Source: Halothece sp. PCC 7418 (GTDB taxonomy: Bacteria > Cyanobacteriota > Cyanobacteriia > Cyanobacteriales > Rubidibacteraceae). From it: a DNA stretch of 64,000 nt. Position 1 is the first letter of the stretch. The number at the start of each line of letters is the position of its first letter. Made by a program: the position numbers and the translations under genes. The notes beneath the pieces are model-generated. The model was not told the origin of the DNA and made no database searches. It saw only the letters and a program-made list of their open reading frames with translations. The stretch is from assembly GCF_000317635.1 (NCBI RefSeq), contig NC_019779.1, forward strand, positions 3,968,001 through 4,032,000. The letters are read 5' to 3'. This document shows, piece after piece, positions 3,767-18,459 of this stretch.

Positions 3767-4693
3767 TTAATTATTTCCTAAACAGTTCGCCAACCAACCC
3801 CTTAAATCCTGCTCATTTTCTAAATTATATGATGCTAAACCGAGTTCATCTAACTGAGAACTATTTAAACTCATAATTTCCCTTTGTATTTGGGAGGATA
3901 ACTCTCCTAGGCGATAAGTTAGTAAGTTAAGGATTAATTCCCGTTTTCCTTCCCGTTTTCCTTCTTCTTTCCAGCTAGTTGTAATTTCCATAATTTCCTC
4001 CTTAACTGTTGTTGATTCGATTTGTTCAAACTCTTGATTAAATACTTCTAATTCCCTGACGGTTAAACGCAGATAAGTATCCACAAACCCAGAAATCAAT
4101 TGCATTCGGGCGGGGTCTAGCCGTAAAGTGGCTAATAAGCGCAGACATTCCAGCTTGACTCGCGGACGTTCCGCAGGGGCTATGTTCATTTTTGACATTA
4201 ACGCACAAGCGACTGGGTTGGCTTGATTCAGGAAATCTCGCCAGTTTAAGCGGTTCAACTGAATCACCCGATAATTAAATTGTAAGACTTGGAAATCAGG
4301 AAATTCAACTTGGTAATAATTAATCGCTTGTTTTTGCGGTTGGTCATAAGAAAAAATGACGATGGGATAAATCGGTAAGTTGAATTTTTCATGCAACCGC
4401 GCAAAGTAGCGGAACATTCTTTGATTAAAGTTACTTTCGGAGGAGGCTTGATTTTCCAGATGAATGAGAAAATAAGAGTTTTCCCCCCGAAACCGAACTT
4501 CTGCTAATAAATCAGTTTCATAGCGTTCTCCCCTTGTGACATCGGTAAAGACTTCTTTATCCTGAAAGGTGACGGATTCAGGTTCGAGATAGTCTAAAAC
4601 TTGCGGAAAGAAAAGTTCTAGGAATTCGAGAAAAAAGGTTGATATTAATTCTTTGAATAACCGATCATGGTCGATCGCGCCTTGGTTTGCCAT
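3767..4693 (-). CDS. Rpn/DUF4351 family PD-(D/E)XK protein, copy 1
   Basis: 308 residues. The N-terminal part carries the Rpn-type (recombination-promoting nuclease / transposase-31-like) signature: DHDRLFKELISTFFLEFLE, then TDLLAEVRF and LIHLENQ, which supply the Asp and Glu-x-Gln positions of a PD-(D/E)XK-like core. The C-terminal 60 residues (LILNLLTYRLGEL onward) are the DUF4351 helical domain common in cyanobacteria. The ATG is at 4693. It is almost identical to the next copy upstream, differing by four extra residues (EGKR) from a duplicated 12-bp unit and by a few substitutions. Members of this family are expanded in cyanobacteria and their function is poorly known; nuclease activity is inferred from the fold. 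Confidence 0.85.
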   Translation of the reverse strand: MANQGAIDHDRLFKELISTFFLEFLELFFPQVLDYLEPESVTFQDKEVFTDVTRGERYETDLLAEVRFRGENSYFLIHLENQASSESNFNQRMFRYFARLHEKFNLPIYPIVIFSYDQPQKQAINYYQVEFPDFQVLQFNYRVIQLNRLNWRDFLNQANPVACALMSKMNIAPAERPRVKLECLRLLATLRLDPARMQLISGFVDTYLRLTVRELEVFNQEFEQIESTTVKEEIMEITTSWKEEGKREGKRELILNLLTYRLGELSSQIQREIMSLNSSQLDELGLASYNLENEQDLRGWLANCLGNN

Positions 4694-4738
4694 TTTTGAT
4701 TGGATTGTAGCGCGATCGCGCTCTGTGAAAACATCTTG

Positions 4739-5653
4739 TTAATTATTTCCTAAACAGTTCGCCAACCAACCCCTTAAATCCTGCTCATTTTCTAAATTAT
4801 ATGATGCTAAACCGAGTTCATCTAACTGAGAACTATTTAAACTCATAATTTCCCTTTGTATTTGGGAGGATAACTCTCCTAGGCGATAAGTTAGTAAGTT
4901 AAGGATTAATTCCCGTTTTCCTTCTTCTTTCCAGCTAGTTGTAATTTCCATAATTTCCTCCTTAACTGTTGTTGATTCGATTTGTTCAAACTCTTGATTA
5001 AATACTTCTAATTCCCTGGCGGTTAAACGCAGATAAGTATCAACAAACCCAGAAATCAATTGCATTCGGGCGGGGTCTAAGCGTAAAGTGGCTAATAAGC
5101 GCAGACATTCCAGCTTGACTCGTGGACGTTCCGCAGGGGCTATGTTCATTTTTGACATTAACGCACAAGCGACTGGGTTGGCTTGATTCAGGAAATCTCG
5201 CCAGTTTAAGCGGTTCAACTGAATCACCCGATAATTAAATTGTAAGACTTGGAAATCAGGAAATTCAACTTGGTAATAATTAATCGCTTGTTTTTGCGGT
5301 TGGTCATAAGAAAAAATGACGATGGGATAAATCGGTAAGTTGAATTTTTCATGCAACCGCGCAAAGTAGCGGAACATTCTTTGATTAAAGTTACTTTCGG
5401 AGGAGGCTTGATTTTCCAGATGAATGAGAAAATAAGAGTTTTCCCCCCGAAACCGAACTTCTGCTAATAAATCAGTTTCATACCGTTCTCCCCTTGTGAC
5501 ATCGGTAAAGACTTCTTTATCCTGAAAGGTGACGGATTCAGGTTCGAGATAGTCTAAAACTTGCGGAAAGAAAAGTTCTAGGAATTCGAGAAAAAAGGTT
5601 GATATTAATTCTTTGAATAACCGATCATGGTCGATCGCGTCTTGATTTGCCAT
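4739..5653 (-). CDS. Rpn/DUF4351 family PD-(D/E)XK protein, copy 2
   Basis: 304 residues and nearly the same protein as the gene 45 bp downstream. Visible differences are Asp versus Gly at residue 5, Ala versus Val just before RELEVFNQEF, and the loss of one EGKR unit. All putative catalytic residues seen in copy 1 (TDLLAEVRF, HLENQ) are retained, so both copies look intact. The ATG at 5653 matches that of copy 1, and about 25 bp of upstream sequence is also duplicated before the copies diverge in a HIP1 site. The very low divergence points to recent tandem duplication or continuing gene conversion. Confidence 0.85.
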   Translation of the reverse strand: MANQDAIDHDRLFKELISTFFLEFLELFFPQVLDYLEPESVTFQDKEVFTDVTRGERYETDLLAEVRFRGENSYFLIHLENQASSESNFNQRMFRYFARLHEKFNLPIYPIVIFSYDQPQKQAINYYQVEFPDFQVLQFNYRVIQLNRLNWRDFLNQANPVACALMSKMNIAPAERPRVKLECLRLLATLRLDPARMQLISGFVDTYLRLTARELEVFNQEFEQIESTTVKEEIMEITTSWKEEGKRELILNLLTYRLGELSSQIQREIMSLNSSQLDELGLASYNLENEQDLRGWLANCLGNN

Positions 5654-5768: not shown

Positions 5769-7226
<1,458 letters not shown>

Positions 7227-7300: not shown

Positions 7301-8230
7301 ATGCTGCAACTGCCAAACCCTGAACAGACTTGTTCCCACCCCTCCGTCGAATCCGCTTATGAGTTCTGCCGTCAAGTGACTGCGGAATACTCCAAGACGT
7401 TCTATCTCGGAACGCTTCTCATGCCCAAAGAGAAACGGAAAGCCATTTGGGCAATTTACGTCTGGTGTCGGCGCACCGATCAACTGGTCGATGGGCCTGA
7501 AGCCGAGTTTACCACTCTCGATACTCTCGATCAGTGGGAAGCCACCTTAGAATCCATTTTTGCGGGTCATCCGGTAGAAAATCCTGATACCGCGCTGGTG
7601 GATACCTTAGAAAAGTTTCCCCTAGAGATTCAGCCCTTCCGCGATATGATTGCCGGACAACGGATGGATCTCAAGCGCGATCGGTATGAAACCTTTGAAG
7701 ACCTCTATCTCTACTGTTATCGAGTCGCGGGAACAGTCGGACTCATGTCTAATGCCGTCTTAGGGGTAGAATCTGAGGGGGGGACACCGCCTTGGCGTAA
7801 ACAACAAAAAACTCATATCCCCACAGAAGAAGCGGTTGCTCTTGGCATTGCTAACCAACTGACAAACATTTTAAGAGATGTGGGAGAAGATGCGGAACGG
7901 GGACGCATTTATCTCCCTCTAGAAGATTTAGAACGGTTTAATTATCGTGAGGAAGATTTATTCCAAGGGGTGATTAATGAAAATTGGCGACAATTGATGC
8001 AATTTCAAATTGAACGAGCACGAGGATTTTACACCCAAGCGGAAAAAGGAATCTGTGATCTTAGTCGAGATTCCCGATGGCCCGTTTGGACGGCTCTAAT
8101 GCTCTATCAAGGAATTTTAGACGTTATCGAGCGCAATGAGTATGATGTATTTAGTCAACGAGCTTATGTTCCCAAAGCAGAGAAGTTTCTCTATCTCCCC
8201 ATTGCTTGGCTACGCGCACAAGTGCTTTGA
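7301..8230 (+). CDS. crtB: Phytoene synthase
   Basis: 309 residues. It condenses two geranylgeranyl diphosphates to 15-cis-phytoene, the first committed carotenoid step and the substrate supplier for the upstream desaturase. Both Mg-binding aspartate motifs are present: DQLVD in WCRRTDQLVDGPEAEF near residue 60, and DVGED in LTNILRDVGEDAERGRIYLP near residue 196. A short insertion (ESEGGTPPWRKQQKTH) precedes the second motif. The start at 7301 is the first in-frame ATG and gives the usual length. It is co-directional with crtP, and co-transcription is likely. Confidence 0.97.
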   Translation: MLQLPNPEQTCSHPSVESAYEFCRQVTAEYSKTFYLGTLLMPKEKRKAIWAIYVWCRRTDQLVDGPEAEFTTLDTLDQWEATLESIFAGHPVENPDTALVDTLEKFPLEIQPFRDMIAGQRMDLKRDRYETFEDLYLYCYRVAGTVGLMSNAVLGVESEGGTPPWRKQQKTHIPTEEAVALGIANQLTNILRDVGEDAERGRIYLPLEDLERFNYREEDLFQGVINENWRQLMQFQIERARGFYTQAEKGICDLSRDSRWPVWTALMLYQGILDVIERNEYDVFSQRAYVPKAEKFLYLPIAWLRAQVL

Positions 8231-8273: not shown

Positions 8274-9089
8274 ATGATCAATTGGAAAACACTACCGAGA
8301 CAGCGGGGAATTTATCAAATTACCACAGGTAGTGTTAGTTATGTTGGATTATCCGATAATATTCAACTCCGAGTGAAACAGCATTTAGAGAGTTCTTCCT
8401 GTCGATCGCGCATTATTCTGGATACCAATAAAGCCAAAATTATTGTTTTAGAATTACTCCCCGATAGTGATGATAAAACACTTGCGCTGCGAGAATGGTA
8501 TTGGTTTTATAAGCTCAAGAAAAAAGGGCATATTATGGTCAATGACCCGAAAACTTTGGGCAAAACAAAAACGGGTCAATTTTTTCCTCCACAAACCCAA
8601 AAAGCAACCGCAGCAAACACTTCTTCTTCGCTTCCTTTCGGATGTGGGGTAAAACTAGCGGGAGTGACAACAGTGGTCGTGGGCTTTTTCTGTTTGGGGT
8701 TTTTGGTTGCGGGAAACTTAGTCCAACAAGGGGTTTCTGGTACACCTGATTCAGAAGCAAAACCAGAAGAGGCTTCAGAAACTAATTCAGAGTCTCAGGT
8801 TTCAGGGAATCGGGAAGGACTGCAGGAAACTAGCAACAGCCAGCGTACTGTGAATATGCAGCCGTTGAGTGCTTGCATCCGCCCTTTACAACGAGGAAGC
8901 TCGAAAGAAGCAGTCAGGCTATTACAAGAGCAATTAGAACAGTTAGGGTATTATCAAGGAGAAAAGGATGGCCTCTATGGTCCAGGTACGGAAGGAGCGG
9001 TTGCTGAGTTTCAACGGGATCATGATCTAGGAGTAGATGGTATTGTCGGTTGTGATACCCAAGCAGCGATTAATCAAGAATTACGTTAA
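8274..9089 (+). CDS. GIY-YIG-like domain fused to a membrane helix and a peptidoglycan-binding domain
   Basis: 271 residues in three parts. Residues 1-95 resemble a GIY-YIG nuclease fold: GIYQI near 13, YVG near 23, an Arg in the following helix (QLRVKQHL) and a Glu in ALREWYWFYKLKKKGHIMVN. A hydrophobic helix spans about 127-148 (VTTVVVGFFCLGFLVAG). After a Ser/Glu-rich linker, residues 205-270 form a PG_binding_1 domain (LQRGSSKEAVRLLQEQLEQL, then DGLYGPGTEGAVAEFQ and VDGIVG). By topology the GIY-YIG part would be cytoplasmic and the wall-binding part periplasmic. Function unknown. It starts 43 bp after crtB and may share its transcript. Confidence 0.8.
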   Translation: MINWKTLPRQRGIYQITTGSVSYVGLSDNIQLRVKQHLESSSCRSRIILDTNKAKIIVLELLPDSDDKTLALREWYWFYKLKKKGHIMVNDPKTLGKTKTGQFFPPQTQKATAANTSSSLPFGCGVKLAGVTTVVVGFFCLGFLVAGNLVQQGVSGTPDSEAKPEEASETNSESQVSGNREGLQETSNSQRTVNMQPLSACIRPLQRGSSKEAVRLLQEQLEQLGYYQGEKDGLYGPGTEGAVAEFQRDHDLGVDGIVGCDTQAAINQELR

Positions 9090-15884: not shown

Positions 15885-17117
15885 CTATACATTAACTGTA
15901 AAAGTAAAGCAGTCAGAGCGTACTTCGGAAAGTACGGTGCTATCCCACAACGCCTTGAGGAAATTCCCCAAAGCTCCTACAAAATCTCTTTTTAGAGAAA
16001 ACCCACAGTTAGGACAAGTAAACTGTTTTCTTCCGCCTAACTTCTGATGAATATGACCACAATGAGGACAAGTTTTCGATGTATATTCTTCGGTGTGACG
16101 GGTCAGAATCGAGCCATATTTAGCACACTGACGCTCTAACACCTGAGAAAAGCGATACATCGCCCAACTCAACATACTACGAGCCGTTTTACTCCGAATC
16201 TTTCTTTTGGCTTTACACACCATTTGAGAAGATTCATAAGTTGGCAACGCTATCACCCGATAGTTTTTAGCTAACCAACTCGCAGTCTTTCGGTGCATTT
16301 CATCAACGAGATTACGAATTTTTCGTCGTTTCCGTTTCATCTTTTGATTGAGTTGATAACGGAGATGGCGATTTTTATGTCCTTTCAATAAGTCTCGTTG
16401 ACTTTGCATCTTATCCAAAGAACGGCACAATCTTACAATGCGATTAATGTCGCCTTCCCCCAACTCGATGAACTGATTACCATCAAATCCTGTTAGGAAA
16501 GTTCGCACACCAGGGTCAAACGCAATGAAACTTTCTTTCCCGTTGTCTTCTACTTTTGTATCTTGAGGAAGAGAAAGATAGAAATTACCGTTTTTGTAAG
16601 TGACTTCTGGCGTGTAGTCTGGGTTAAGAACACAGAAGCGTCTTCCGTTATCAGAACATTCAAATGCTCCTAAATTTCCCCAATATTTAGGAAGAAGTCT
16701 CCCTTGGTTTAAATCGGAAGCGACCTTAAACTGGAGGGTTTGAGATTTGTCTCGAATAGAACGAAATCTCGCTATTTTTAATCCAGCTTGGGGGTGAGGT
16801 TGTTTCTGCTTACCTTTACCCACATATTTGGGATTCTTTTTGGTTTTAGACCATGCTGAGTACGCCTCCATCACTGCTTGGTCAAGAATAGCTGCGGGGA
16901 GTTTTTCTTTTAACCAGTCGGGTCTGATTTGAGCCTTAAAAAAGGTCTTAAAGGCTTGCTTTCCAGTCCCTCCAATTCCTGTTCGGTCAAAGCCTTGATG
17001 CTGGTTTAAGTATTCTATAGCCAGATTATAGGCTTTCCGATTCAGTCTGACCCATTTCTTTAGAAGATGGCGTTGTTCCTTGGTTAGTACCATTCGATAC
17101 TGGGTGCAAGTCTTCAC
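15885..17117 (-). CDS. tnpB: TnpB RNA-guided nuclease of an IS607-family element
   Basis: About 410 residues from a GTG at 17117 (VKTCTQYRMVLTKEQ); an ATG at 17093 is the alternative. The RuvC acidic residues are visible: Asp in AFDPGVRTFLTGFD, Glu in ALPTYESSQM and Asp in LKRDFVGALG. The zinc ribbon has two CxxC pairs (CPHCGHIHQ and FTCPNCGF). TnpB proteins cut DNA next to a target motif, guided by an RNA from the element's 3' end, and help retain the element. The reading frame stays open upstream to 17660 out of frame with tnpA, but that extension has no TnpB similarity. It overlaps the 3' end of tnpA. Confidence 0.88.
   Translation of the reverse strand: MKTCTQYRMVLTKEQRHLLKKWVRLNRKAYNLAIEYLNQHQGFDRTGIGGTGKQAFKTFFKAQIRPDWLKEKLPAAILDQAVMEAYSAWSKTKKNPKYVGKGKQKQPHPQAGLKIARFRSIRDKSQTLQFKVASDLNQGRLLPKYWGNLGAFECSDNGRRFCVLNPDYTPEVTYKNGNFYLSLPQDTKVEDNGKESFIAFDPGVRTFLTGFDGNQFIELGEGDINRIVRLCRSLDKMQSQRDLLKGHKNRHLRYQLNQKMKRKRRKIRNLVDEMHRKTASWLAKNYRVIALPTYESSQMVCKAKRKIRSKTARSMLSWAMYRFSQVLERQCAKYGSILTRHTEEYTSKTCPHCGHIHQKLGGRKQFTCPNCGFSLKRDFVGALGNFLKALWDSTVLSEVRSDCFTFTVNV
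15905..15950 (-). ncRNA. Candidate omega-RNA hairpin at the 3' end of tnpB
   Basis: GTACTT (15920-15925) and AAGTAC (15930-15935) form a perfect stem with a four-base loop inside the last codons of tnpB. In TnpB elements the guide RNA overlaps the 3' end of tnpB and runs to the element's right end, so a structured RNA is expected exactly here. The element end itself was not located; polA ends only 25 bp beyond the tnpB stop. Confidence 0.35.
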
Positions 17118-17670
17118 GGATGGGTTTCTTGTACTTTTGGAGTCCGTATAATCGACAACTGAAGACGTGGATGATAGCAAGGATATCTTCGACCATTTCT
17201 CGTTCTGGAGAGAGGTCACTTTGTTGGAGAACCACGAGTTGACAACCTTGTCTTTCGCAGAGCCATTGGATAAGTTCAACACCGAAACGGGCGAGTCGAT
17301 CCTTATGACAGACCACAACCATTGAAACATCTCCTGCGAGAACTCGTTCCAATAGGGAGCGAAGTTTTTTCCTTTTGAAGTTGAGTCCCGACGCGATTTC
17401 TTTGACAAGTTCACCGTTGGGGAAACGAGTGAGAAGAAAGTCAGCTTGTCTCTCAAGGTCAGGTTTTTGAGCATGACTGCTAACTCTGGCGTACAGGAGA
17501 ATTGATTTCTCTGATGGAGAGGGGTTGAGGACTGATTCGACGTTGTAACGTCTTTGACCGTTGGGAGTTCGGATGGTTTCGATTTTTCCAGCTTCATCCC
17601 ATCGGAGGAGGGTTCGGAGTGAAACGCCGAGTTGTTCTTGGGCGACTCTGGCTGGTACATACTTTGACAT
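17026..17670 (-). CDS. tnpA: IS607-family TnpA serine recombinase
   Basis: 214 residues. The N-terminus is a MerR-like helix-turn-helix (YVPARVAQEQLGVSLRTLLR, residues 4-23, then NGQRRYNVESV). The serine recombinase catalytic domain follows, with the nucleophile in LLYARVSSHAQ near residue 63, DLERQADFL, and VVVCHKDRLARFG near 120. Such N-terminal-HTH small serine recombinases are specific to IS607 elements, which move without inverted repeats or target duplications. The last 45 residues are encoded where tnpB begins in another frame. All visible catalytic residues are intact, so the element could be active. Confidence 0.92.
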   Translation of the reverse strand: MSKYVPARVAQEQLGVSLRTLLRWDEAGKIETIRTPNGQRRYNVESVLNPSPSEKSILLYARVSSHAQKPDLERQADFLLTRFPNGELVKEIASGLNFKRKKLRSLLERVLAGDVSMVVVCHKDRLARFGVELIQWLCERQGCQLVVLQQSDLSPEREMVEDILAIIHVFSCRLYGLQKYKKPIREDLHPVSNGTNQGTTPSSKEMGQTESESL

Positions 17671-18021: not shown

Positions 18022-18459
18022 ATGAGTGAAGAACAAGTTCAAGAATATGCAACCTTAGAAGCGGAAAAAGAGGAAACGACCGCCAAGTCCGAGACTAAAG
18101 CGACCAAAGAAACTAAAGCTACCAAGGATAGTCAAAACTCCCTCGCTTTGAAAACAGTGGGAGATCGACCAGTTAGTGGTGGAAAACTCGAACTCGCGGG
18201 AACTTTCCGTACTATGGGAGGAGACCGTCCCATTTTAGCCAGTCACCTCCATGTCGTAGAAAAATTCCGCACCATGGGTGGCGAACGCCCAGTTTTTGCT
18301 ACTCAGTTACCAACAGTCGGGAACTTTTATTCTTCAGGAAGTCGTCCCATTGGGGCAAGTACCCTCAAAATTGATGAGACTTATTCTAATTTTGGAAACC
18401 GTCCTGTTGCCTCTAATCAAATTGATGATCCGAGCTTATTAATGGGTTATATTGATTAA
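18022..18459 (+). CDS. Protein with five approximately 20-residue RP repeats
   Basis: 145 residues. The first 40 are Glu/Lys/Thr-rich and look disordered. From residue 45 onward a unit with consensus (F)RTMGG(D/E)RP(I/V)xAxxL recurs, with RP at 49-50, 69-70, 89-90, 108-109 and 127-128, so the period is 20 then 19 residues. Units two and three are nearest the consensus; units four and five are degenerate (SSGSRPIGASTL, NFGNRPVASNQI). No signal peptide or membrane helix is present. I do not recognise a named family. A ribosome site AAGGAAA precedes the ATG and a terminator follows at 18505. The repeats suggest a multivalent binding or scaffold protein, which is inference. Confidence 0.8.
   Translation: MSEEQVQEYATLEAEKEETTAKSETKATKETKATKDSQNSLALKTVGDRPVSGGKLELAGTFRTMGGDRPILASHLHVVEKFRTMGGERPVFATQLPTVGNFYSSGSRPIGASTLKIDETYSNFGNRPVASNQIDDPSLLMGYID

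Follow-up and report, generated by a model that had tools for sequence, protein, structure and literature searches.

A GIY-YIG domain fused to a membrane helix and a PG_binding_1 domain in Halothece-like cyanobacteria

Gene and domain architecture

Within the window, the 64,000-nucleotide stretch of the Halothece sp. PCC 7418 genome analysed here, an open reading frame spanning exactly positions 8274–9089 on the forward strand encodes a protein of 271 aa which, from the frame and its Pfam matches, consists of a GIY-YIG domain, a membrane helix, a linker and a PG_binding_1 domain. The GIY-YIG domain, including a conserved motif at its C-terminal end, is assigned to residues 1–106 (8274–8591; forward strand, as for all features of the gene given below) from the Pfam match, an alignment (A2) and a structural model. 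The membrane helix corresponds to a hydrophobic stretch at residues 128–146 (8655–8711) with a mean Kyte–Doolittle hydropathy of 2.33, the runner-up in the protein reaching 0.75. A variable linker at residues 153–200 (8730–8873) leads to the PG_binding_1 region at residues 201–271 (8874–9086), recognised by Pfam and by orthologue comparison and carrying invariant Cys201 and Cys260; the match to PF01471 itself covers residues 211–266 (E 5e-19). Both Pfam families are matched by all seven orthologues, each of which also has one membrane helix. The initial annotation, that the gene encodes a GIY-YIG domain joined to a single membrane helix and a PG_binding_1 domain, holds.

Two carotenoid genes precede the gene on the same strand: crtB (phytoene synthase; 7301–8230), 43 bases away, and, upstream of it, pds/crtP (phytoene desaturase; 5799–7226). 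This succession of pds, crtB and the gene is found in five of the six genomes of the genus; the sixth genome and the sister genus carry the gene elsewhere, with crtB on a different contig. A scan for terminators around the gene found none and was uninformative. Just upstream of pds, on the reverse strand (3767–5653), a tandem pair of genes with Transposase_31 (YhgA-like) and DUF4351 domains shows 97.8% identity over 927 bases and represents a recent tandem duplication. An adjoining MscS-type channel gene in genome G003 (L044:9358–10948, reverse strand) is present as two ORFs, possibly a broken gene or a sequencing error.

The GIY-YIG fold and its catalytic residues

PF01541 (GIY-YIG) matches residues 12–83 above its curated cut-off (E 4.1e-6; 27.4 bits against 22.6), and the match strengthens to E 5.5e-7 with the N-terminal part alone as query. 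The residues described from the letters alone as being kept are all present: G12-I13-Y14 (8307–8315), Y23-V24-G25 (8340–8348), and the Arg and Glu at the catalytic positions, Arg33 (8370–8372) and Glu74 (8493–8495). Among the seven orthologues these residues and His37 (8382–8384) are invariant, the sole variation being V or I at position 24, so that the Arg/Glu pair, whose loss would have spoken against the assignment, is retained throughout. When the orthologues are aligned with 15 other cyanobacterial GIY-YIG domains (from UvrC, standalone and other proteins), only Y14, Y23, G25, R33 and E74 are invariant across the 22 rows.

AlphaFold2 prediction of the full-length protein from the seven orthologues only gave a confident model for the PG_binding_1 region alone, with the GIY-YIG part of low confidence; with the 22-row alignment, a model of the domain reached a pLDDT of 78 and a pTM of 0.72. 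Structure comparison of this domain model placed I-TevI first (1mk0, Z 9.8, rmsd 2.3 over 85 residues; 1ln0, Z 9.4), followed by the N-terminal domain of AtGRXS16 (2lwf, Z 8.1) and UvrC (1yd6, Z 8.0), the first rows outside the GIY-YIG class appearing at Z 3.5; the match is partly circular, since the wider alignment includes other GIY-YIG rows and may lean the model towards that fold. Foldseek by itself returned the same leading names for the model (best E 1.7e-3). The domain sequence alone found no significant relative among solved structures, and a wider alignment (A3) matched UvrC and I-TevI significantly and SLX1 at E 4.5e-4, matches which, because A3 includes UvrC rows, are not independent proof of the fold. 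The Pfam match is independent of the wider alignment used for the model and, together with the likeness of the model to I-TevI and UvrC, bears out the GIY-YIG fold proposed for the first ∼95 residues. The domain is best described as I-TevI/UvrC-type with a complete set of catalytic residues, from which nuclease activity is predicted.

Identity with UvrC itself was rejected at 12.4 bits against a cut-off of 285.45, the protein not being of UvrC length; a separate GIY-YIG gene of 633 aa in the same genome is of that length.

Topology and the wall-binding region

The two ends of the protein differ in charge in all seven orthologues, the GIY-YIG domain being strongly basic (net charge +6 to +12, pI 9.7–10.6) and the PG_binding_1 region acidic (pI 4.3–5.7), with its two cysteines spaced by exactly 59 residues in every case. 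A Cys201–Cys260 disulphide probably closes the latter domain, and its acidity and the invariant cysteine pair are signs consistent with peptidoglycan binding. A basic domain close to DNA and an acidic, probably disulphide-bonded domain in the salty outside fit an N-in, C-out arrangement, so that the topology initially proposed, with the nuclease fold inside and the wall anchor outside, is favoured by charge, acidity and cysteine pattern. Other cyanobacterial PG_binding_1 proteins examined often have an N-terminal hydrophobic segment, as expected of a domain that works outside. Alternatively, the helix could reside in the thylakoid membrane, where there is no murein.

Distribution and evolution

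A search of 60 related genomes recovered a full-length relative from each of the genus's five other genomes (62–76% identity) and from one genome of a sister genus (47%). The domain order is thus present in all six genomes of this genus of Halothece-like, salt-loving cyanobacteria and in one sister genus, or 7/9 genomes of the family; the survey proposed for other cyanobacteria found it in this one family only. A profile of the GIY-YIG domain run against 386 phylum and 389 order genomes, two overlapping samples in which 12 first-look candidates were scored in most genomes, found no further member among the candidates scored; the few matches at E 1e-3 to 1e-5 were mostly frames of 558–631 aa, the length of UvrC. 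From 20 more GIY-YIG locations in relatives, a motif filter recovered 11 frames, none with a predicted membrane segment. Searches beyond cellular genomes went the same way: 59 pattern matches in viral contigs included no confirmed relative, phages gave only weak matches to phage GIY-YIG endonucleases (best E 0.4), and no relative was found on plasmids, so that nothing points to a recent origin from mobile DNA.

The gene is single copy, and its base composition is close to that of its surroundings in both genera (43% in this genome, 57% in the sister genus). Across the genus, the GIY-YIG domains share 84–92% identity with a dN/dS of 0.045–0.073, compared with identities of 21–42% for the linker and 54–82% for the PG_binding_1 region (dN/dS 0.07–0.24 where estimable), which marks the GIY-YIG part as the most constrained; between the two genera the GIY-YIG domains are ∼60% identical. 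Compared against the same genomes, the GIY-YIG half shows fewer synonymous differences (pS 0.49–0.67) than the PG_binding_1 half (0.64–0.79). Overall, the gene looks old, vertically inherited and genus-core rather than recently arrived, and this genus-core status, together with the conserved carotenoid-gene neighbourhood, does not look like that of a mobile defence gene.

Relation to known systems

The closest functional parallel is SNIPE, a GIY-YIG nuclease of the Escherichia coli inner membrane, which cleaves phage DNA as it is injected and turns toxic once its membrane part is removed (PMC13190303). SNIPE demonstrates that a nuclease can distinguish self from non-self by sitting at the point of phage DNA entry. 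The initial remark that GIY-YIG enzymes normally work free in the cytoplasm has to be qualified, since SNIPE is a proven membrane-bound example and gives a tethered GIY-YIG nuclease its precedent (PMC13190303). A single helix holds the GIY-YIG domain of SNIPE on the inner membrane, facing the cytoplasm, as would be the case in the present protein, and in both this domain is the most conserved region. Their construction differs: SNIPE has an N-terminal helix, DUF4041 and a C-terminal GIY-YIG domain, whereas the protein described here begins with its GIY-YIG domain (residues 12–83), continues into the helix (128–146), lacks DUF4041 and adds a predicted wall-binding domain outside; the gene is also genus-core, unlike the scattered SNIPE. 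A Pfam scan of the protein up to E 10 found no match to DUF4041 (PF13250), and a search for this domain across the nine family genomes gave none, although the control likewise matched nowhere, so that the search does not establish that these genomes lack SNIPE. Membership of SNIPE was rejected, the protein sharing a GIY-YIG domain and a membrane helix with that system while lacking DUF4041 and having the reverse domain order.

I-TevI and the group I intron endonucleases provide the closest solved fold (Z 9.8) and, in TIGR01453, the best NCBIfam model for all seven members; membership of this family was rejected at 26 bits, below the cut-off of 56.05, and in place of an intron or a DNA-binding tail, neither of which was found, the protein has a membrane helix and a wall domain. 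The N-terminal GIY-YIG domain of chloroplast AtGRXS16, which has endonuclease activity in isolation (PMC5890173), is similar in fold (2lwf, Z 8.1) but belongs to a soluble glutaredoxin fusion with weak sequence similarity (E 0.15). ZorB of the Zorya defence system, in which wall binding is essential, is an inner-membrane protein whose wall-binding domain lies outside, and is linked in its system to nucleases inside (PMC11890865); it differs in its OmpA-like wall domain, its ion-driven motor partner ZorA and its separate effector proteins, and no sequence relation between ZorB and the present protein was found. The animal nuclease LEM-3, located at the midbody, where it cuts DNA bridges (PMC11975286), shares with ANKLE1 the placement of a GIY-YIG nuclease at the site of cell division, although these proteins carry ankyrin and LEM domains and the idea alone is alike. 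The PADLOC-DB 2023 defence models gave no significant match (best UzuA, E 0.035).

The text of a 2006 survey of GIY-YIG domain fusions contains neither the word peptidoglycan nor the word transmembrane (PMC1564403), and text searches of an open-access library brought up no paper evidently concerned with a GIY-YIG fusion of this type. Membrane tethering of a GIY-YIG nuclease has a precedent, and the protein is not a member of SNIPE; what is new is the arrangement, with the GIY-YIG domain first, a wall anchor and no DUF4041.

Proposed function

In the mechanism proposed here, the acidic PG_binding_1 domain would grip murein outside the membrane, and the flexible linker and single helix would cross to the basic GIY-YIG domain inside, keeping a putative endonuclease on the cytoplasmic face of the membrane by wall anchoring. 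Such tethering would restrict cutting to DNA lying against the envelope and thereby spare the nucleoid. DNA cutting at the envelope is the likeliest function for the protein; by analogy with SNIPE, the likeliest substrate would be DNA entering across the membrane, as phage or transforming DNA, followed by DNA trapped at the closing septum. Entering DNA is slightly favoured over the cell's own DNA, and the full reading, of a wall-anchored inner-membrane protein presenting an I-TevI/UvrC-type endonuclease at the cytoplasmic face with entering DNA as its most likely substrate, is put forward tentatively.

A narrower version, in which the protein would be an always-on, one-protein barrier to DNA entry, fixed in the genus and separating self from non-self by position through its grip on the wall with no phage-binding domain, is possible but speculative. 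The gene lies outside any defence island, unlike most defence genes, and the case for a role in defence is weakened by this fixed, non-island setting and by the absence of a phage-binding part resembling DUF4041.

The same constancy within the genus would suit housekeeping of the cell's own DNA, in which the PG_binding_1 region would concentrate the protein at a part of the wall such as the septum, and branched or trapped chromosomal DNA would be cut before closure, comparably to LEM-3/ANKLE1: the gene is genus-core, single copy and vertically inherited, its nuclease part is under strong purifying selection, and LEM-3 establishes that a GIY-YIG nuclease can cut DNA bridges at a midbody (PMC11975286). 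Absence from two family genomes and from the other sampled cyanobacteria would, however, be odd for a general division factor. No septum-specificity is known for PG_binding_1, which also counts against this reading, and own-DNA housekeeping is considered rather unlikely, if a serious contender. The geometry would also fit a tethered nuclease trimming or cutting DNA beside ComEC, where it is taken up during natural transformation, and ComEC is encoded in all nine family genomes; since these include the two without the gene, its presence lends no special support to uptake, and ComEC is likewise widespread in cyanobacteria without the gene. Moreover, transforming DNA is single-stranded in the cytoplasm, the side on which the nuclease domain would lie, and processing of this kind is regarded as quite improbable.

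Two further explanations dispense with cutting altogether. The strongly basic GIY-YIG domain, whose nuclease activity is predicted, might instead bind DNA or another ligand and link the wall to the nucleoid or to a partner, but Arg33, Glu74 and the rest of the catalytic set do not vary among the seven proteins from two genera, although the domains are just ∼60% identical between these genera, making a non-cutting tether unlikely. A chance or recent fusion without function, for which the narrow distribution was the one favourable point found, is highly improbable given that seven genomes from two genera share the domain order across three different neighbourhoods, that internal stops are lacking and that both ends are under purifying selection. 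A delivered or polymorphic toxin was dropped from consideration, as the nuclease domain lies at the N-terminus and shows conservation, not polymorphism, and an immunity gene was not seen.

A GIY-YIG domain held inside the cell while the other end of the protein grips the wall would be an unusual design. Should the preferred reading of entry control be correct, it would constitute an independent route to a SNIPE-like geometry, with a wall anchor replacing the phage-binding domain; otherwise, the protein may be a bacterial GIY-YIG nuclease that handles the DNA of its own cell from a position set by the wall.

Two features downstream of the gene are recorded as minor observations. At 18022–18459 on the forward strand, a 145-aa protein without a Pfam match contains repeated G(D/E/-)RP(V/I) motifs; and at 15885–17670 on the reverse strand, a MerR-resolvase gene overlaps a TnpB-like gene (Cas12f1-like_TNB), an arrangement seen in IS607-type elements.
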